Shown: one piece after another, positions 5,667-13,974 of the stretch
Layout of the letters: each line of letters starts with the position of its first letter
Position numbering within the stretch: position 1 is the first letter of the stretch
Assembly: GCF_004519335.1 (NCBI RefSeq)
Contig: NZ_SOZD01000003.1
Location: forward strand, 248,001 to 312,000
From: Jiella endophytica
GTDB taxonomy: Bacteria > Pseudomonadota > Alphaproteobacteria > Rhizobiales > Rhizobiaceae
DNA: 64,000 nt
Direction of reading: 5' to 3'
Position numbers and translations under genes: made by a program
The notes under the pieces: generated by a model
What the model was told of the DNA's origin: nothing
Database searches by the model: none
What the model saw: only the letters and a program-made list of their open reading frames with translations

Positions 5667-6617
5667 ATGACTGACAGCAATCGGCATCAAGGCACCGTCT
5701 TCGTCTTCGGATCGGTGAACATCGACCTCGTCTGCCGGGTGGACGGAATTGCCCGGCCCGGCGAGACCGTCTTGTCGGCCCGCTACGAGCAGCTCTTCGG
5801 CGGCAAGGGTGCGAATCAGGCGGTCGCCGCCGCGCGGGCCTCGCGCCGTCCCGTCGCCTTTGCCGGCGCCGTCGGCGACGACGACCTCGGGCGTGCCGCC
5901 AGGGAGCAGATGCGCCGGGAAGGGATCGACACTGCCCATCTGGCGACCGGCGCAGAGCGCACCGGCTGCGCCTTCATCGCCATCGACCGGAGCGGCGAAA
6001 ACGCCATCACCGTTGCCAGCGGCGCCAATCTCGAAGCCAGTGCCGGCGATCTCGACCCATCGCTTTTCAGCGCCGACACCGTTCTCGTCCTGCAGATGGA
6101 GATCGCGCTCGCCGAGACCCTTGCGGCGGCCGAGCGGATGAGCGCCGCCCGCGGGCGCGTCGTCGTCAACCTGGCGCCGGTGCCGGCGGATCTTCGCGCG
6201 GACGATCTGTCGCGGCTGCTCGCTGCAAGTAACGTTCTCGTCGTCAATGAAGGAGAACTCGCCGCCGCGGCGCGGATCGTCGGCGTCGACGCGGCCGACC
6301 CTGCCGCCATGGCGGAGGCGCTCGCCGCCCGCTACGGCATCGAGGTGATCGCGACCCTCGGCGGCGACGGCGCGCTCGTCGCCAGTGCCGACGGCGGCTG
6401 CGAGACGATCGCCGCGATGGCCGTCGACGTCGTCGATACCACCGGCGCGGGTGACACCTTCGTCGGCGTTCTTGCCGGCGGTCTGGCGCAAGGGCTGCCG
6501 ACGCCGGAGGCCGCGCGGCGCGCCTCCGTGGCTGCCTCCCTTGCCTGCCGCAGGCTCGGTGCCCAGACCGCGATGCCCTCGGCCGACGAGATCGACGCGG
6601 CGCTGGCCGGCGCATGA
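5667..6617 (+). CDS. rbsK: Ribokinase (PfkB family)
   Basis: Cytoplasmic kinase predicted to phosphorylate ribose to ribose-5-phosphate. The 316-residue product begins VFVFGSVNIDLVCRVD, has the PfkB signature 1 GGKGANQAVAAARA and signature 2 DTTGAGDTFVGVLAGG with the catalytic aspartate, and ALAARYGIEVIATLGGDGA between them. The ATG at 5667 fits family length; upstream in-frame starts add unrelated residues. It overlaps the modE-like gene by ATGA, an odd pairing because no ribose transporter is adjacent. The sugar ABC transporter at 36-40 kb could supply it. Related sugar kinases cannot be excluded. Confidence 0.88.
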   Translation: MTDSNRHQGTVFVFGSVNIDLVCRVDGIARPGETVLSARYEQLFGGKGANQAVAAARASRRPVAFAGAVGDDDLGRAAREQMRREGIDTAHLATGAERTGCAFIAIDRSGENAITVASGANLEASAGDLDPSLFSADTVLVLQMEIALAETLAAAERMSAARGRVVVNLAPVPADLRADDLSRLLAASNVLVVNEGELAAAARIVGVDAADPAAMAEALAARYGIEVIATLGGDGALVASADGGCETIAAMAVDVVDTTGAGDTFVGVLAGGLAQGLPTPEAARRASVAASLACRRLGAQTAMPSADEIDAALAGA

Positions 6618-7021
6618 CGGAGCCGCCTGCCCGCGCCGTCGCGCATCTGCGCCTCAGACTCAGCGACCGCTTCAGCATCGGTCCGGGCAAGGCCCGACTG
6701 CTGGAGACGATCGCCGAGACCGGATCGATCGCCGCCGCCGGGCGGCGCCTGAAGATGAGCTACAAGCGGGCCTGGTCGCTGGTCGAGGAAATGAATGCCG
6801 GCTTCCGCGAGCCTCTGGTGGCCTCCGCACGCGGCGGCAATGCCGGCGGCGGCGCCAGCCTGACGCCGGCCGGCGAGACCGTGCTTTCGAGCTATCGCAA
6901 GGTGGAGGCCGAAGCCGAGGCGGCGGTCGCCGGCGAGATCACCGTCCTGCGGGCGCTGCTCGCGCCAGAGACGGCCGCGGCAGACGATCCGCCCGGGCAA
7001 AATCTCAAACGCGGCACTTGA
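6614..7021 (+). CDS. modE: ModE-like winged-helix regulator lacking the molybdate-binding domain
   Basis: A 135-residue protein resembling only the N-terminal DNA-binding domain of ModE: FSIGPGKARLLETIAETGSIAAAGRRLKMSYKRAWSLVEEMN, then LTPAGETVLSSYRKVE. Full ModE (about 260 residues) carries two C-terminal Mop domains that bind molybdate; these are absent. It therefore either senses molybdate through a partner or acts as a constitutive repressor. It overlaps the ribokinase stop by ATGA and is followed 14 bases later by a palindrome that looks like its operator, then modABC. Confidence 0.88.
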   Translation: MTEPPARAVAHLRLRLSDRFSIGPGKARLLETIAETGSIAAAGRRLKMSYKRAWSLVEEMNAGFREPLVASARGGNAGGGASLTPAGETVLSSYRKVEAEAEAAVAGEITVLRALLAPETAAADDPPGQNLKRGT

Positions 7022-7035
7022 CGCGGGCGGGCAAG

Positions 7036-7059
7036 CGATATGTTCTGCAAAACATATCG
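7036..7059 (+). promoter_or_regulatory. ModE (Mop) box-like operator before modA
   Basis: A perfect 9-base inverted repeat with a 6-base spacer: CGATATGTT, CTGCAA, AACATATCG. The 9-6-9 geometry and CG-TAT ends resemble known ModE boxes of E. coli and Rhodobacter. It lies between the modE-like stop (7021) and the modA start (7069). Its right end runs into the GGAG ribosome binding site of modA, so a bound repressor would block transcription entry and lie on the leader. The role is inferred from symmetry and context. Confidence 0.8.
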
Positions 7060-7068
7060 GAGAACTCC

Positions 7069-7824
7069 ATGACACGCTTCCTGCCGCTCGCCCCCCTCGC
7101 CGCCGCTGCCGCCCTCTTCTGCCTCACCGGTCAGGCCGCGGCGGGCACCACTGCGGTCGCCGTCGCCGCAAACTTCACCGAGCCGGCCAAGGAGATCGCC
7201 AAGGCCTTTGCGGCAAAGACCGGCGACACTGCCGAGCTGAGCTTCGGCTCGACGGGGTCGCTCTACGCGCAGATCGGCCAGGGCGCGCCCTTTCAGGTCT
7301 TTCTGGCGGCGGACGACGAGCGGCCGCGCCGCGCGATTTCCGACGGGCTTGCCGCCGAGGGCAGCGAATTCACCTATGCGATCGGCACCCTCGCCCTCTA
7401 CAGCGCCGATCCCGATCTGGTGACGGGGCCGGAAACGCTGAGCAAGGCGACATTCGACAAGGTCGCCATCGCCAATCCGAAGACCGCGCCCTACGGCGCC
7501 GCGGCCGTCGAGACGATGAAGAAGCTTGGCGTCTACGACGATCTCGAAGCAAAGCTCGTCGAAGGCAACAGCATCGCCCAGGCCTTTCAGTTCGTCTCGA
7601 CCGGCAATGCCGAACTCGGCTTCGTCGCGCTCTCGCAGATCGCCGGCAACGAAGCCGGATCGCGGTGGATCGTCCCGGCCGAGGATCATGCGGCGATCCG
7701 CCAGGATGCCGTGCTGCTCACCCCCGGCGAAGACAGCGAGACGGCGAAGGCCTTCATCGCCTTCCTGAAGGGCCCGGAAGCGGCGAAGATCATCAAGCGC
7801 TACGGCTACGAGAGCGGCCAGTGA
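7069..7824 (+). CDS. modA: Molybdate ABC transporter substrate-binding protein ModA
   Basis: Periplasmic protein that captures molybdate (and tungstate) for ModBC. The 251-residue product has a signal peptide (hydrophobic residues 5-20 ending in GQAAAG), then TTAVAVAANFTEPAKEIAKAF, LSFGSTGSLYAQIGQGAPFQVFLAADDERP and GNAELGFVALSQI, the characteristic ModA blocks with the oxyanion-binding serine in GSTGSL. The ATG at 7069 has GGAG 7 bases upstream. Expression is probably controlled at the palindrome just before it. Confidence 0.95.
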   Translation: MTRFLPLAPLAAAAALFCLTGQAAAGTTAVAVAANFTEPAKEIAKAFAAKTGDTAELSFGSTGSLYAQIGQGAPFQVFLAADDERPRRAISDGLAAEGSEFTYAIGTLALYSADPDLVTGPETLSKATFDKVAIANPKTAPYGAAAVETMKKLGVYDDLEAKLVEGNSIAQAFQFVSTGNAELGFVALSQIAGNEAGSRWIVPAEDHAAIRQDAVLLTPGEDSETAKAFIAFLKGPEAAKIIKRYGYESGQ

Positions 7825-7861
7825 GACCCATTGAGAGACGCATCGCGAAACGACGGGCGCG

Positions 7862-8536
7862 ATGAGGCTCGACACCGCCGACATCTTATCGGCGCTGGTG
7901 CTGACGCTGGAACTTGCCGGTGTCACCACCCTCGTCCTCCTGGTGCTCGGAACCCCGCTCGCCTGGTGGCTTTCGCGCTCGCGCTCGCTCGTCAGTGACA
8001 TCGTCGGCACGCTGGTCGCCCTGCCGCTGGTGCTGCCGCCAACGGTGCTCGGCTTCTATCTCTTGATCGCGCTCGGGCCGGACGGTCTCGGCGGCCTTGC
8101 CGGCGTGCGCTCGCTGGCCTTTTCCTTTGCCGGCCTCGTCGCTGGCTCGGTCGTCTATTCGCTGCCCTTCGTCGTCCAGCCGATCCGCGGCGCCTTCGAG
8201 GCGATGGGCCGGCGCCCGTTGGAGGTCGCCGCCACCCTCAGGGCTTCGCCGCTCGACCGTTTCTTCACCGTCGCCATCCCCCTCGCCCGGCCGGGCTTCC
8301 TCACCGGCGCCGTCCTCGGCTTCGCCCATACGGTGGGCGAATTCGGCGTCGTGCTGATGATCGGCGGCAACATCCCCGGCAAGACCCGCGTCCTCTCCAT
8401 CGCCATGTTCGACTATGTCGAGCAGCTGCGCTACCGCGAGGCGCATCTCGTCGCCGGCGCCATGCTGGTCTTTTCCTTCCTGGTGATCCTCGCCATGTCG
8501 CGGATCGGCCGGCGCATCGGCGAGGTCCGGCCATGA
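7862..8536 (+). CDS. modB: Molybdate ABC transporter permease ModB
   Basis: Inner-membrane permease of the molybdate importer, 224 residues with about five hydrophobic segments. It contains the permease coupling loop [25 protein letters not shown], including the EAA-type motif that contacts Mod[15 protein letters not shown] and [22 protein letters not shown] are typical ModB segments. It starts 37 bases after modA and overlaps modC by ATGA. Confidence 0.95.
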
Positions 8537-9681
8537 CGGCTGCGGCCGGCGGCAAGCCGGCGGAACCGCACGGCCTCGACGTCTCGTTGCGCGGCCGGCG
8601 CGGCGAGTTCAGCGTCGAGGCGGCCTTCACCATGCCGCGGCGGGGCGTCACCGCGCTGTTCGGCCCGTCGGGCTCCGGCAAGACCTCGATCCTGCGGGCG
8701 ATCGCCGGCCTCACCCGCCTCGAGGGCCGGGTGCTCGCGGGCGGCGACGTCTGGCAGGACGGGGCACGCTTTCTGCCGACCCATCGCCGCGCGCTCGGCT
8801 ACGTCTTTCAGGAGGCGAGCCTGTTCGAGCATCTCTCCGTTGCCGGCAATCTCGTCTACGGGGCGAGGCGCAGCCCCGGCGGCATCGACCAGGAGCTGCT
8901 TCTCGAAGTCATCGAGCTCCTGGCGCTCGGGCCGCTCCAGGGGCGCGCCGTCGCCGACCTCTCCGGCGGCGAACGCCAGCGGGTGGCGATCGGCCGGGCG
9001 ATCCTGACGCACCCGCGGTTGATGCTGATGGACGAGCCGCTCTCCGGGCTCGACCGGCGGGCAAAGGACGAGATCCTGCCGTTCCTGGAACGGCTCGCCG
9101 GCTCTTTCGCCCTGCCGATCCTCTATGTCAGCCACGACATCGGCGAGATCGAACGCCTCGCCGACGACATCGTCCTCGTCGAACAGGGACGCGTGACGGC
9201 CAGCGGACCGCTCAACCAGGCGCTGACCGACATCGGCCTCGGCTTCGTGCGCCACCCGCACGCCGCAGCGGTGCTGCCGGCGCGGGTCACCGGCTTCGAC
9301 GAGGCGGACGGCCTTGCCGAACTCGACCTTTGCGGCCAGACCGTCTTCGTCGATGGCAGCGGGCCGGGTGAGATCGGCCTCGAACGGCGGCTGCGCATCG
9401 AGGCGAGCGACGTCAGTCTCGCCAGGGAGCCGCTCACCCACTCGACCATCCTCAACACCTTGTCCGTCGAGATCGTCGCCATCGAGCCGGCCGGTCGCGC
9501 CAACCTCGCCGTGCTCCTGGCGCTCGATGGCCCGGGCCGCCTCACCTTCATGGCCAAGGTGACCCGGCGCTCGGCGGCGCGGCTGGAGCTCGCCCCCGGC
9601 GACCGGCTTTTCGCGCAGATCAAATCGGTGTCGCTGGCGACCTCGCCGACGCCCGGCCGGCAAATTGCGTCTTCTACCTGA
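8533..9681 (+). CDS. modC: Molybdate ABC transporter ATP-binding protein ModC
   Basis: ATPase that powers ModB. The 382-residue product has Walker [18 protein letters not shown] loop [14 protein letters not shown], signature [14 protein letters not shown], Walker [13 protein letters not shown] and the H loop SHD. The C-terminal ~120 residues form the TOBE/Mop-type domain ([21 protein letters not shown]) that can bind molybdate. Because the ModE in this operon lacks Mop domains, this is the only visible molybdate-sensing fold besides ModA. Confidence 0.95.
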
Positions 9682-9735: not shown

Positions 9736-10278
9736 ATGACCATTGCCGGCGAAAGCCTCGGCGCCCCCGCCATCTCCTACCACCCGGCGGCGCGCATCCT
9801 GCACTGGATCGTCGCGGTCCTCGTCCTCGTCGTCTGGCCGGCCGGCTTCGTCATCGAATTCATCAAGGACGATGCCAAGACCGCCTTCTATCTCGTCCAC
9901 GAATCCTTCGGGTTCCTGATCCTCTGGCTGATGCTTGCCCGCTTCGCCTTCCGGCTGGTCGTCCCGCCGCCGCCGGAGCCGGCAATGCCGCTGTGGCAGA
10001 AGCGGCTTGCCGAAACGGTCCACTGGCTGCTCTACGCGGCGCTGATCCTGCAGCCGATCTTCGGCTTTCTCGCCACCAACGCCTTCGGCTTTCCGCTCGA
10101 CTGGTTCGGCGCCCTCACCGTCTGGAGCCCGATCGGAAAATCCGATCTCGCGCCGACGCTGATGAGTGTCCATGTCTTCCTCGGCTGGTCGATCCTCGTC
10201 CTCTTGTGCCTCCATATCGGCGGCGTCCTGCACCATCACGTCCTGTTGCGGGACCAGACCCTGCACCGGATGATCTGA
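9736..10278 (+). CDS. Cytochrome b561 family protein
   Basis: A 180-residue inner-membrane di-heme cytochrome b with four predicted transmembrane helices. Candidate heme ligands are histidines in RILHWIVAV, YLVHESFG, ETVHWLLY and LHIGGVLHHH. Members of the CybB/YceJ group move electrons from quinol to periplasmic acceptors. It follows modC by 54 bases and may be read through from the mod operon, but no partner protein (such as a YceI-like protein) is present. Confidence 0.88.
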   Translation: MTIAGESLGAPAISYHPAARILHWIVAVLVLVVWPAGFVIEFIKDDAKTAFYLVHESFGFLILWLMLARFAFRLVVPPPPEPAMPLWQKRLAETVHWLLYAALILQPIFGFLATNAFGFPLDWFGALTVWSPIGKSDLAPTLMSVHVFLGWSILVLLCLHIGGVLHHHVLLRDQTLHRMI

Positions 10279-10626: not shown

Positions 10627-11430
10627 TCAGTCAGGAAGCGCCAGAATGTCGAGATGGCCGACGATCGTGCGGCCCCCGGCCGCGCTATCGATTCGCATTT
10701 GCCGCCACGCCTCGAGTTCCTCGGCGTCGATGACGTCGAGCTCGCCGACGGCATCTGCCATGCCTTCGACATGCGCCCTTGCGAGCGCCGCATCCTCGCT
10801 CGCAAGCCGCCAGGGGCTTTCGGCAATCGTGACGGCGTAGCCGCGCGCTTCGAGGGCCCGCGCCAGAGCGCGGGCGGCGGCGGGCCCGAGCGAGGCCCCG
10901 CTGCCGAGACCCTTCGGCCGCAACTGATGCCTGTTGAAACCGGCAAGGACGATGCCGTCCAGCGGGTGCGACGGCGAAAACACCGTCGAGCCGTCATAGT
11001 TGAGCGCGGCGTAAAGGCCGACACTCGCGGCCGTGAGACGCTCGGCAATCGCTTCGATGAAATCCCGCGAGGCGAGATCGAACAATGCCGAGGCCGTTGC
11101 CAGGCGCACCCCTTCGAGCGGGATCGCCGCCACGTCGGAAAGGTCCGCCAGACGGGTTTCGGCTTCCGCACCGAGCTGTTCCGCTCGCTCCATGGCAAAG
11201 GCCAGCAGCACCGGGTCGTCGTCGAGCAGCCGCCAGACTGTCGACGCTGAAGCCAACAGCGGCTGCAGGGCTGCCAGCGTCGAGCCGCTGCCGCAGCCAA
11301 GATCGAGGACGGTGGCTCTGCCCCCGCCCTCCGTCAGCCAGTCGGCCGCGCGGCGCAACAGCGAGGCATCGCGTGCCTGCCGGTCGGCCGGCTCGCGCAG
11401 AGCCAGCCACTCGGCGGCAAAGCCGCTCAT
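10627..11430 (-). CDS. Class I SAM-dependent methyltransferase (last gene of pterin-like operon)
   Basis: A 267-residue protein with a Rossmann-type SAM-binding motif VLDLGCGSGSTLAAL at residues 41-55, followed by the acidic loop LLDDDPVLL and a motif-II-like LATASALFDLASRDF. Substrate is not deducible. Its ATG overlaps the glycosyltransferase stop by ATGA, so the two are translationally coupled. The neighbours suggest it modifies the same small molecule as the dehydrogenase, the pterin-synthase-like protein and the glycosyltransferase. Confidence 0.87.
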   Translation of the reverse strand: MSGFAAEWLALREPADRQARDASLLRRAADWLTEGGGRATVLDLGCGSGSTLAALQPLLASASTVWRLLDDDPVLLAFAMERAEQLGAEAETRLADLSDVAAIPLEGVRLATASALFDLASRDFIEAIAERLTAASVGLYAALNYDGSTVFSPSHPLDGIVLAGFNRHQLRPKGLGSGASLGPAAARALARALEARGYAVTIAESPWRLASEDAALARAHVEGMADAVGELDVIDAEELEAWRQMRIDSAAGGRTIVGHLDILALPD

Positions 11431-12566
11431 CGGACCGTCTCCGCCGGCGAGTGAGCCGCCAACTCCGGCCCCGCCTTCGCCACATCGGCGAGGACCGCGG
11501 CGACGATCTGTGCCGTCTCCTCCCAGCGAGGCAACGCCATACCCGCCGCAGACGCAGCCTGGCCGGCCGCCTTCAGCGCGGACTGGTCGGTTAGGAATTC
11601 GCGCAGCGCGGCACCGAGCGCATCGGCATCGCCGGGCGGAAATCGCCGTCCCGCCGCAGCGGGGATCAGGTCGCGCGGCGCGCCTTCGGCGCAGAAGACG
11701 ATCGGCAGGCCGTTCGCCATCGCCTCGGCAAACACCATGCCATAGCCCTCGTAGCGGCTGGCGAGGACGAAGAGATCGGCCTTTTCGTATTCTTCCGAGA
11801 CATCCGGCATCGCCCCGGCAAGGGTGATCCTGTCCGCCAGACCGCTTTCCTGGACCTGCTGCTCCAGCGCCGCCGCCGTCTGCGGATCGGCGGCCGGGGA
11901 ACCGACGATCCGGCACCGCCAGTCGAGATCCGCAATCCTCGCGAGACCATCGACCAAGGTCGCGTGATCCTTGCGGGGGATCAGCGTCCCGATGGACAGG
12001 ATCAGCGGCAAAGTCTCGCCCTCGTCCCGCTCGACCGCGCGCAGCGCGTCACTTCCCCGCCCGTCGCGGTCGGTCCGCCACGGGCGATCCGTGCCCGGCG
12101 GCGCCACGGTCAGCCGCTCCGCCGGGACGGCGAAATCGTCCGTCAGCGTCTTCGCCGTCGCATCACTCGTCGCCACGACGGCGCGTGCGAAGCCGAGCGC
12201 CGCCCGCTCGCTCTCGGCAAGGCGCGACTGCCCAGCGGCATCGAGTCCGGTCTCAAGGCTGAGCGGATGATGGACGAGGGCGACCAGTCGGAGTCGCCTC
12301 GCCTGTCTTGCGGCGATCTCCGGCATCGCTCCGAAGGCGAGGCCATCCACCAGCACCAGCGTATCGTCCTCGACGGCAGCCAGGGCCCCCTCCGCGGCGT
12401 TCAGTTCCGCCGCTGTAGGAACCGGAAAGCCAGGGGGCAACATCAGATGCTCGACGCGCCAGCCGCGCCGTTCCAGCTCCACCATCAGCCGCCGGTCATA
12501 GGCATAGCCGCCGCTTGGCGTCGCAATGTCGCCCGGGATCGCGAAGACGACCCGGCCTGCGCTCAC
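11427..12566 (-). CDS. GT4-family glycosyltransferase (pterin-like operon)
   Basis: A 379-residue GT-B fold glycosyltransferase. The N-terminal domain starts VFAIPGDIATPSGGYAYDRRL. The donor-binding C-terminal domain shows LSIGTLIPRKDHATLVDGL and the EX7E motif in RYEGYGMVFAEAMANG. No signal peptide is present, so it is probably cytoplasmic. The start is GTG at 12566, which overlaps the stop of the upstream gene as GTGA. It is co-transcribed with a pterin-synthase-like gene, so a cytoplasmic small-molecule acceptor is plausible, though glycolipid synthesis is equally possible from sequence alone. Confidence 0.88.
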   Translation of the reverse strand: MSAGRVVFAIPGDIATPSGGYAYDRRLMVELERRGWRVEHLMLPPGFPVPTAAELNAAEGALAAVEDDTLVLVDGLAFGAMPEIAARQARRLRLVALVHHPLSLETGLDAAGQSRLAESERAALGFARAVVATSDATAKTLTDDFAVPAERLTVAPPGTDRPWRTDRDGRGSDALRAVERDEGETLPLILSIGTLIPRKDHATLVDGLARIADLDWRCRIVGSPAADPQTAAALEQQVQESGLADRITLAGAMPDVSEEYEKADLFVLASRYEGYGMVFAEAMANGLPIVFCAEGAPRDLIPAAAGRRFPPGDADALGAALREFLTDQSALKAAGQAASAAGMALPRWEETAQIVAAVLADVAKAGPELAAHSPAETVR

Positions 12567-12961
12567 AGCTCCCCCTCGTACCAGGCACGGGCGACGTGGG
12601 ATTCCTCAAGCGAAACCTTCAGCCGCCGGATGCGGCCGCCGCCCTCGCCGAGCGCCCCGCCGGCGATCCGCTCCGCCAGCCGGTCGAACAGATGCCGCGC
12701 CAGGAACTCCGTCGTCGTGACCTTCCCCTGAAAGGCCTCGACCGCGTCGAGATTCTGGTAGTTCAGGGGCTCAAGCACCGACTTCAGCAGCTGGATGGCG
12801 AGGCCGATATCGACCGCCAGCCCGTCGGCGTCGAGATCGTTGGTGAAGAAGGCAGCATCGACGACATAGGTCGCTCCGTGCATTCCCTGCGCCGGCCCGA
12901 AGACCGGCCGCGGCAGGCTGTGAGCGATCATCATGTGGTCGCGGACCTCGACGGCATACAT
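12563..12961 (-). CDS. 6-pyruvoyl-tetrahydropterin synthase / QueD-like protein with altered active site
   Basis: A 132-residue T-fold protein of the PTPS/QueD family. Two of the three expected zinc histidines are recognisable (H14 in IAHSLP and H28 in MHGA), but the third position of the usual HGH is alanine (A30). By eye alignment with E. coli QueD, the catalytic Cys is Ala24, and the catalytic Asp-His pair of LDH is Asn67-Tyr68. The C-terminal ET glutamate is kept (SLEESH). The start at 12961 is the ATG before YAVEVRDHMM; a longer form from 13051 lacks family similarity. It most likely does not perform standard 6-carboxy-tetrahydropterin synthesis, although it would normally be annotated so. 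Confidence 0.85.
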   Translation of the reverse strand: MYAVEVRDHMMIAHSLPRPVFGPAQGMHGATYVVDAAFFTNDLDADGLAVDIGLAIQLLKSVLEPLNYQNLDAVEAFQGKVTTTEFLARHLFDRLAERIAGGALGEGGGRIRRLKVSLEESHVARAWYEGEL

Positions 12962-12990
12962 CGGCACCCTCTCCTCTCGTCGACGATTCG

Positions 12991-13974
12991 TCAGTCGTAG
13001 CGGATGCGATGGCAGAGGGTGGCCGGGTCTGCAAGAATCTCCCCGTAACATGCGGCAAGCTCGGCAAATCGCGTTTCGCCGGAAAACAACGCGTCGAGCC
13101 GCTGGTCGGCAAGGAGCCCGAGCGCCGTCTCCAGCCGCCGTCGATTGCTCCAGCGTGGCGCCCGCGCTGCAGGGACGCGGCCGACCTGTGAGCCGATGAT
13201 CGACAGCCGCCGGCTGTGAAAGGCGCCCCCGAGCGGCACCGACGGCGTACGCTCGCCATACCAGCTCGCTTCGACGACCCTCGCGCCGACCCCCGCCGCA
13301 TCGATCGCGCTCGCCAGCCCCGCCTCGCTCGCCGAGGCGTGAACGACCACGTCGCAGTCCCGCGGCAACTCGCCCGGACCGACAAAACCGACGCCGAGTG
13401 CGCCGGCCACCTTTGCCCGCGCCGAGTTCACGTCGACGACCACCGTCTGCGTCGCCGGGATCCGCGCGGCGAGGAACCCGACCAGAAGTCCCACCACGCC
13501 ACCGCCGATCACCGCCACCCGGTCACCTGGCAAGATGCCGCCATCCCAGACGACGTTCAGCGCCGTCTCCATGTTCGCCGCAAGGACTGCACGCTCGGGC
13601 GCGACTGCGCGTGGCACCGGAACCGCCGCCTCGCCCGGCACGACAAAACGGTCCTGGTGCGGATAAAGGCAAAAGACCCACTCGCCCGACCGGTCTTCGT
13701 CGCCTCCGACGACCCGGCCCACCGTGCCGTAGCCGTATTTCACCGGAAACGGGAACGCGCCCTCCTGGAACGGCGCCCGCATCCGCTGCCATTCGCTTTC
13801 AGGTACCGAACCCGCGGCGACCAGCGCCTCCGTGCCCCGACTGATCGCACCGTATGCACTTTCGACAGTGACCTCGCCGCGGTTGGGACGCTCTATTGCA
13901 CAACGTCGCAACGCGGCGCGATTTCGCTCGACGATCCAAAGCGCCGTCGCTTCCGGCTCCGCCTCCTCCGCCAT
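12991..13974 (-). CDS. Medium-chain dehydrogenase/reductase, BchC-like, zinc ligands absent
   Basis: A 327-residue MDR-superfamily oxidoreductase. It has ISRGTEALVAAG and MRAPFQEGAFPFPVKYGYGTVGRV, close in form to BchC-type dehydrogenases, and a nucleotide-binding motif VAVIGGGVVGLLVGFLAA. The usual catalytic zinc ligands (Cys of CGxC, His of GHE) are replaced by S and Y, and the structural zinc lobe with four cysteines is missing, so it is probably a zinc-free reductase. The start at 13974 is the ATG in front of AEEAEPEA. It heads the four-gene operon and ends 29 bases before the PTPS-like gene. Confidence 0.87.
   Translation of the reverse strand: MAEEAEPEATALWIVERNRAALRRCAIERPNRGEVTVESAYGAISRGTEALVAAGSVPESEWQRMRAPFQEGAFPFPVKYGYGTVGRVVGGDEDRSGEWVFCLYPHQDRFVVPGEAAVPVPRAVAPERAVLAANMETALNVVWDGGILPGDRVAVIGGGVVGLLVGFLAARIPATQTVVVDVNSARAKVAGALGVGFVGPGELPRDCDVVVHASASEAGLASAIDAAGVGARVVEASWYGERTPSVPLGGAFHSRRLSIIGSQVGRVPAARAPRWSNRRRLETALGLLADQRLDALFSGETRFAELAACYGEILADPATLCHRIRYD

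Follow-up and report, generated by a model that had tools for sequence, protein, structure and literature searches.

A PTPS-IV gene set in Jiella endophytica and its relatives as the probable core of a GTP-derived biosynthetic pathway

Described relatives and the operon of Jiella endophytica

The COG0720 subfamily PTPS-IV carries an FGPAQ signature, and the accessible part of the paper describing it presents a neighbourhood of PF00925 and PF01872 genes as a network trend, not as a strict criterion (PMC5445326). One member, SCO6650 of Streptomyces coelicolor, has a solved structure (PDB 3d7j). Here, we analysed a stretch of 64,000 nucleotides from Jiella endophytica (contig NZ_SOZD01000003.1, positions 248,001 to 312,000), hereafter the window, in which a PTPS-IV gene is the second of four genes in an operon. 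Gene content, linkage, residue conservation and fold are described below for this operon and its relatives. We suggest that the operon is probably the core of a conserved GTP-derived biosynthetic pathway, with PTPS-IV acting on a GTP-derived head.

Unlike the genes around SCO6650, the cluster in the window has no ribA, creatininase or CDP-alcohol transferase gene. Four residues of E. coli QueD (PTPS-I; PDB 4ntk and relatives), Cys27, His33, Asp70 and His71, are replaced in the window protein by Ala24, Ala30, Asn67 and Tyr68, respectively. The riboflavin entry enzymes (RibA, ArfA/GTP cyclohydrolase III, BrbF/ArfB and RibD_C/ArfC) belong to the same families that adjoin PTPS-IV or its haloarchaeal relatives, but the partners of PTPS-IV are separate paralogues in a cluster of their own. 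No deaminase domain was found in the RibD_C copy that was scanned (L027), and in 81 of 83 cluster RibD_C proteins Gln occupies the position of a Lys in Jiella's own RibD. Toxoflavin-type clusters, which contain GTP cyclohydrolase II, RibD and a methyltransferase, follow the same logic of a GTP-derived heterocycle; they are not known to hold a PTPS, GT4 or MDR gene.

The altered active site, the motif and the RibA/RibD_C neighbourhood of PTPS-IV are already in print. In the open-access literature, outside which most subscription journals lie, no description turned up of an MDR-PTPS-GT4-MT core in bacteria and haloarchaea, nor of the exchange of RibA for GTP cyclohydrolase III, the alternation of two membrane modules, the fusion of GT4 with the methyltransferase (MT) or the unlinked opgH2-fkbM pair. 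The accessible parts of the open-access papers examined give no tested function for PTPS-IV.

The operon and the gene facing it comprise the following features (window positions, strand):

12991..13974, minus strand: MDR dehydrogenase/reductase, zinc-free and BchC-like, first gene of the operon (profile matches and replaced zinc ligands)
12563..12961, minus strand: PTPS-IV (COG0720) protein of 132 amino acids, T-fold, with an altered active site (Pfam PTPS match and alignment)
12887..12901, minus strand: FGPAQ signature at residues 21-25, Ala24 standing where QueD has Cys27 (positions counted from the start codon at 12961)
12872..12880, minus strand: HGA, residues 28-30, with the second zinc-site histidine retained and Ala30 in place of the third (alignment and conservation)
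11427..12566, minus strand: GT4 glycosyltransferase (profile matches)
10627..11430, minus strand: class I S-adenosylmethionine (SAM) methyltransferase (Pfam)
9736..10278, plus strand: cytochrome b561 gene, convergent with the operon and beyond the stretch covered by an earlier note on this DNA (Pfam Ni_hydr_CYTB)

On the minus strand, the MDR and PTPS-IV genes are separated by a gap of 29 bases, while PTPS-IV overlaps GT4 by GTGA and GT4 overlaps MT by ATGA. The four coupled genes, with their coordinates, gap and overlaps, are as the earlier note had claimed from the sequence alone. The 132-residue protein matched the Pfam PTPS family PF01242 with 75.5 bits (cut-off 22.4) and NCBIfam QueD with 32.1 bits, under the cut-off of 89.25; automatic annotation labels it 6-carboxytetrahydropterin synthase, as that note had foreseen. 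The PTPS, GT4 and MT proteins exceeded the Pfam cut-offs of their families, whereas MDR, with 22.3 bits, fell below its cut-off of 31.8.

The best NCBIfam match of the MDR protein was BchC, with 55.5 bits against a cut-off of 291.25. Since this score is far under the cut-off, the protein is best regarded as only 'BchC-like'. In the alignment with E. coli Tdh, Cys38 is replaced by Ser and His63 by Tyr, and among Cys93, Cys96, Cys99 and Cys107, which together with the former two we take to be the zinc ligands, just Cys107 is retained. For the methyltransferase, a PDB sequence search gave no match at E 0.01, and a fold search returned generic class I methyltransferases only, with no pointer to the substrate.

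Active site and gene partners of PTPS-IV in bacteria

To 123 distinct bacterial loci belong the window, 80 scanned loci (the best 80 of at least 582 encoded relatives), 8 plasmid records and 34 genome stretches; the set is skewed toward relatives of the window and shares ancestry, so that counts over it are not independent. One placeholder (L125) and five loci with DNA identical to that of others (L128, L133, L136, L137 and L155, the last equal to L068) were left out. Some contigs are short, and gene absences there are uninformative. In a survey of 398 Pseudomonadota genomes, with at most 10 candidates scored per genome, PTPS-IV was found in 27, always as a single copy.

Alignment with E. coli QueD, taken from the genome record, upheld every residue assignment made by eye in the earlier note. 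Besides the four replacements given above, H14, H28, D51, E85 and E120 of the window protein correspond to the retained H16, H31, D54, E86 and E110 of QueD. The residues H14, Q25, H28, A30, D51, T84, E85 and E120 are invariant across the 123 loci; A24 occurs in 122 and Y68 in 115, the remaining eight having M, L or F at position 68. Neither Cys at position 24 nor His at position 68 was found in any of them. Since the patterns used in the locus scan included H14, H28 and A30, these residues were partly pre-selected in the scanned loci, and 35 loci (the window and those from genome-wide protein or profile searches) were counted separately: H14, A24, Q25, H28, A30 and E120 are present in all 35, and Y68 in 27. 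The FGPAQ signature is found in 120 of the 123 loci. The window protein does not contain the CxxxHGH motif of QueD, which includes the catalytic Cys and three zinc histidines, while the fold of PTPS-IV matches PTPS/QueD structures (T-fold, or tunnelling fold).

Thus Ala24, Ala30 and the loss of His68 are a trait of the subfamily, as had been proposed. Asn67, which had been put forward with them, was dropped as a signature, being found at 83 of the 123 loci only; strict invariance of Y68 held for the first 100 loci and failed with further ones. The two outcomes named beforehand as refuting, a normal triad in the same gene context and a cluster restricted to this strain, did not appear. The claimed loss of catalytic residues stands in so far as the Cys/Asp/His triad is replaced. 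It is not novel, PTPS-IV having been published and its structure 3d7j solved, and, given the invariance of two histidines of the zinc site and of the Glu that anchors the pterin, the site is altered, not emptied.

Such a site could also belong to a non-catalytic binding or carrier subunit, which would hand a GTP-derived intermediate to MDR, GT4 or MT. This would agree with the loss of the triad and the third zinc ligand in a T-fold that keeps the pterin-binding Glu, and with the position of the PTPS-IV gene, usually between MDR and GT4 or MT. However, H14, Q25, H28 and D51 equal the binding residues in invariance, which suggests chemistry, and zinc histidines are retained by the haloarchaeal relatives described below. 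We consider a binding role doubtful, although it would be the main rival to the ring closure or rearrangement without metal that we favour.

The core partners are found near PTPS-IV at most of the 123 loci (MDR 117, MT 113, GT4 113), so the co-occurrence of the four genes is widespread, as the earlier note had expected. The GT4 count excludes nine false matches of the hidden Markov model (HMM), which are methyltransferases caught via fused proteins in the model. GT4 and MT are fused in one open reading frame of 644-655 amino acids in L168, L170, L172 and L173. Other partners are RibD_C (83), RibA (49), CDP-alcohol phosphatidyltransferase (50), an LPG_synthase_TM flippase (41) and OpgH (41), followed by FkbM (55), cytochrome b561 (55), sulfatase-like (39), IMPase (18) and creatininase (7) genes. 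RibA lies within 5 kb of PTPS in 48 of its 49 loci and RibD_C in 81 of its 83, though nearly half of the sequence lies farther out. Among the 94 loci of at least 17 kb, all 34 with the flippase also hold CDP-alcohol transferase; OpgH and CDP-alcohol transferase occur together at 4, one of them alone at 27 and 40, and neither at 23.

The PF00925 (RibA) and PF01872 (RibD_C) neighbourhood is present at 49 and 83 of the loci and absent at the window operon and the other Jiella loci. Of the ribA/folE-like or creatininase neighbours that the earlier note had thought worth seeking, ribA-like and creatininase genes exist near the operon in relatives. In the 49 cluster RibA proteins, Cys65, Cys67 and Asp126 of E. 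coli RibA are kept in all, and Cys54, Tyr105 and Arg128 in 48 each. We presume the zinc and catalytic roles of these residues from E. coli RibA, and cluster RibA should be active because the zinc cysteines and the catalytic Tyr, Asp and Arg are retained. A pairing of Tyr105 changes with creatininase was considered and gave no rule: Met occurs in Streptomyces L028 only, and L168, L169 and L170, where RibA likewise adjoins a creatininase gene, have Tyr.

The cytochrome b561 gene facing the window's operon is a probable operon-associated gene. Beyond it, at 6614-9681 on the plus strand, a ModE-like regulator and ModC enclose two open reading frames resembling the rest of a molybdate transporter, an ordinary arrangement.

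Haloarchaeal counterparts and genome-wide associations

A search of plasmid records with the window's MDR gave 12 haloarchaeal records with 30-35% identity, 10 of which were examined; all were thus selected by MDR. By HMM, these loci contain MDR (10), PTPS (9), MT (9), CDP-alcohol transferase (6), GT4 (5) and creatininase (2), and none has RibA, RibD_C, flippase, OpgH or FkbM. MDR, PTPS and MT occur jointly in nine, L203 showing neither PTPS nor MT. An annotated GTP cyclohydrolase IIa directly precedes MDR in four loci (L201, L203, L204 and L205), and in L201 and L203 it was confirmed by Pfam as PF05165 (GTP cyclohydrolase III), with 271.7 and 292.7 bits. According to the accessible part of PMC9478397, GTP cyclohydrolase III is a family distinct from RibA that likewise opens the GTP ring. 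In the eight aligned haloarchaeal PTPS proteins, three zinc histidines and Glu110 are retained, while Cys27 is replaced by Glu, His71 by Asp, and Asp70 by Arg (7) or Glu (1). The triad is thus lost here as well, but the zinc site is kept.

That GTP ring openers of two unrelated families share one gene context indicates, with good support, a GTP-derived pyrimidine or pterin as the substrate class. F420 (deazaflavin) synthesis likewise uses riboflavin-pathway pyrimidines, which would speak for a function of PTPS-IV there. The accessible part of PMC5041015 makes this assignment and cites unpublished evidence for it. However, no F420 gene was recognised among the families recurring in at least 8 of 100 loci, no genome-wide search for F420 genes having been made, and we regard this function as highly improbable. 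The same part of that paper has PTPS subfamilies III and VI substituting for FolB or producing a precursor of folate, so a place for PTPS-IV in the folate branch might be considered. It is the least probable of the functions weighed here: each of the 23 PTPS-IV genomes surveyed has FolB, and no folate gene was recognised among the recurring neighbour families. As a separate observation, the window's genome gave two FolB matches with equal scores (C11:66208-66525 and C24:308461-308778), which may reflect a duplication or an assembly artefact.

A divergent QueD serving queuosine synthesis is what the database label of PTPS-IV implies, and PTPS-IV is indeed present in five of the six genomes having QueC without an ordinary PTPS/QueD (G004, G008, G009, G018, G054 and G055). 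Against this, Cys at position 24 is absent throughout and the NCBIfam QueD score is low; no que gene was recognised in the conserved context of PTPS-IV; and the window's genome, where PTPS-IV is the only PF01242 protein, has no QueC match. QueC was found in 8 of 23 PTPS-IV genomes and in 14 of 38 genomes without PTPS-IV, and three genomes (G019, G026 and G027) hold PTPS-IV plus an ordinary copy. A tblastn search with E. coli QueE around QueC, reaching some 5 kb or as far as the contig extends, gave no match in the six genomes, while the queCDE control G002 matched. Such a role is very improbable in our view, and queuosine and folate roles alike are unlikely for the window's copy. These six genomes (L178-L183), with QueC present and matches to ordinary QueD and nearby QueE absent, are an observation in their own right.

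A genome-wide association was found with OpgH2, the OpgH class defined by NF003963 scores of at least 670 bits (the other class scores at most 425). It is present in 16 of the 23 PTPS-IV genomes and in none of the 38 others (Fisher p 1.2e-9) or, by genus, in 8 of 15 against 0 of 37 (p 8.6e-6), both values uncorrected for kinship; three weak genome-search matches (G011, G020 and G034; E 1e-5 to 1e-3) were excluded from the PTPS-IV count. In the 20 of these 23 genomes whose locus was examined, OpgH2 occurs in 13, CDP-alcohol transferase at the locus in 7, and both in none.

Within the genus Jiella, PTPS-IV was found in 9 of 10 genomes. In the window's genome, opgH2 adjoins a gene for an FkbM methyltransferase on a separate contig (C25; L190:7829-10584). 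The two genes are adjacent in all nine PTPS-IV genomes and lie away from the operon in eight; in the sister genome G006 (L129), opgH2, fkbM, MDR, PTPS, GT4 and MT are grouped together. In Jiella, opgH2 and fkbM appear to be pathway members without linkage to the operon. In the sole Jiella genome without PTPS-IV, OpgH2 is also absent, and queC, queD and a queE-like match are adjacent.

Proposed pathway and its significance

Several observations weigh against a common GTP-derived pathway, in addition to the dependence among the bacterial counts. RibA is nearby in just 49 of the 123 loci; in Streptomyces anthocyanicus (L144:8001-8426), a solitary PTPS-IV stands beside a MEKHLA-domain gene with the usual partners absent; and at both Aureimonas altamirensis loci (L051, L074) GT4 was not seen. 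No GTP cyclohydrolase lies within the examined stretch of 6 of the 10 haloarchaeal loci, RibD_C is missing from all ten, and, given the retained zinc histidines of the haloarchaeal PTPS, a mechanism without zinc would not hold throughout the pathway. RibA, RibD_C and CDP-alcohol transferase are not near PTPS-IV in the window or at any of the other eight Jiella loci, and a search elsewhere in the window's genome gave none of the cluster type. The sole RibA-family domain found there (C24:73957-74397) is degenerate, with no zinc cysteines seen in its translation; the two RibD_C matches (one full-length RibD and one weak) and the two weak CDP-alcohol transferase matches are not cluster-like. Since dedicated RibA and RibD_C are absent in Jiella, precursor supply from housekeeping metabolism has to be assumed. 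The degenerate RibA domain is reminiscent of rhizobia using BrbF.

The missing RibA/RibD_C partners and the separation of opgH2-fkbM from the operon in eight of nine genomes might mean that the Jiella operon is a decaying remnant without substrate. However, in eight other Jiella genomes PTPS-IV is an open frame, 77-89% identical to that of the window and accompanied by MDR, GT4 and MT, and opgH2 is kept in the same nine genomes and absent from the one without PTPS-IV. Decay is accordingly a very improbable explanation.

Returning to a GTP-derived pathway as the probable role of the operon, we suggest the following scheme. In many relatives, a dedicated enzyme would open the GTP ring, namely RibA in bacteria or GTP cyclohydrolase III in some haloarchaea, accompanied in a few relatives by a creatininase-type enzyme. 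One member of the creatininase family, BrbF, has been proven to act as a FAPy-nucleotide formamidase (PMC9478397). The ring opener and the RibD_C reductase would yield a 2-amino-4-oxo-diaminopyrimidine (DARPP or its ribityl form); in Jiella, the precursor would be drawn from housekeeping metabolism. The retained residues of cluster RibA, the scanned RibD_C copy without deaminase domain, the Gln in place of Lys in most cluster RibD_C proteins, and the invariant Glu120 and Thr84-Glu85 of PTPS-IV suggest a substrate in which the 2-amino-4-oxopyrimidine part of guanine is preserved.

PTPS-IV would hold the diaminopyrimidine head via Glu120 and Thr84-Glu85. Since it has neither the third zinc ligand nor the Cys/Asp/His triad, a QueD-like action on the side chain is unlikely. 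Its features hint weakly at a metal-free condensation, tautomerisation or ring closure to a pterin, for which the later half of FolE catalysis, or lumazine synthase, could serve as a parallel. The gene families give a similarly weak hint of the later steps: MDR may then alter the alcohol/ketone state, GT4 may attach a sugar and MT a methyl group, and FkbM may be a further decorating enzyme. A membrane module, either CDP-alcohol phosphatidyltransferase with the flippase or OpgH2 with FkbM, would probably anchor or export the product. The product may be a glycosylated, methylated reduced pterin, an unclosed diaminopyrimidine being an equally open option.

A more specific proposal is that bacteria and haloarchaea share a pathway to a glycosylated pterin or diaminopyrimidine that is anchored in the membrane or exported to the periplasm. 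It would proceed through opening by RibA or GTP cyclohydrolase III, ring closure or rearrangement by PTPS-IV (zinc-free in bacteria), decoration by GT4 and methyltransferases, and a membrane step by CDP-alcohol phosphatidyltransferase and flippase or by OpgH2, with cytochrome b561 possibly exchanging electrons with the product. Taken as a whole, this proposal is tentative, and we think it unlikely.

The PTPS-IV gene set spans Proteobacteria, Actinomycetota and haloarchaea, and in some archaea an unrelated GTP opener replaces RibA. With this spread and the swap of RibA, the likely candidates for the substrate narrow to pyrimidines or pterins made from GTP, and the function of PTPS-IV becomes testable. 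If the membrane module belongs to the pathway, a pterin linked to lipid or glycan, so far unrecognised, would be the product; if the shared pathway proposed here is true, its product would form a new class among redox-active lipids or glycoconjugates.

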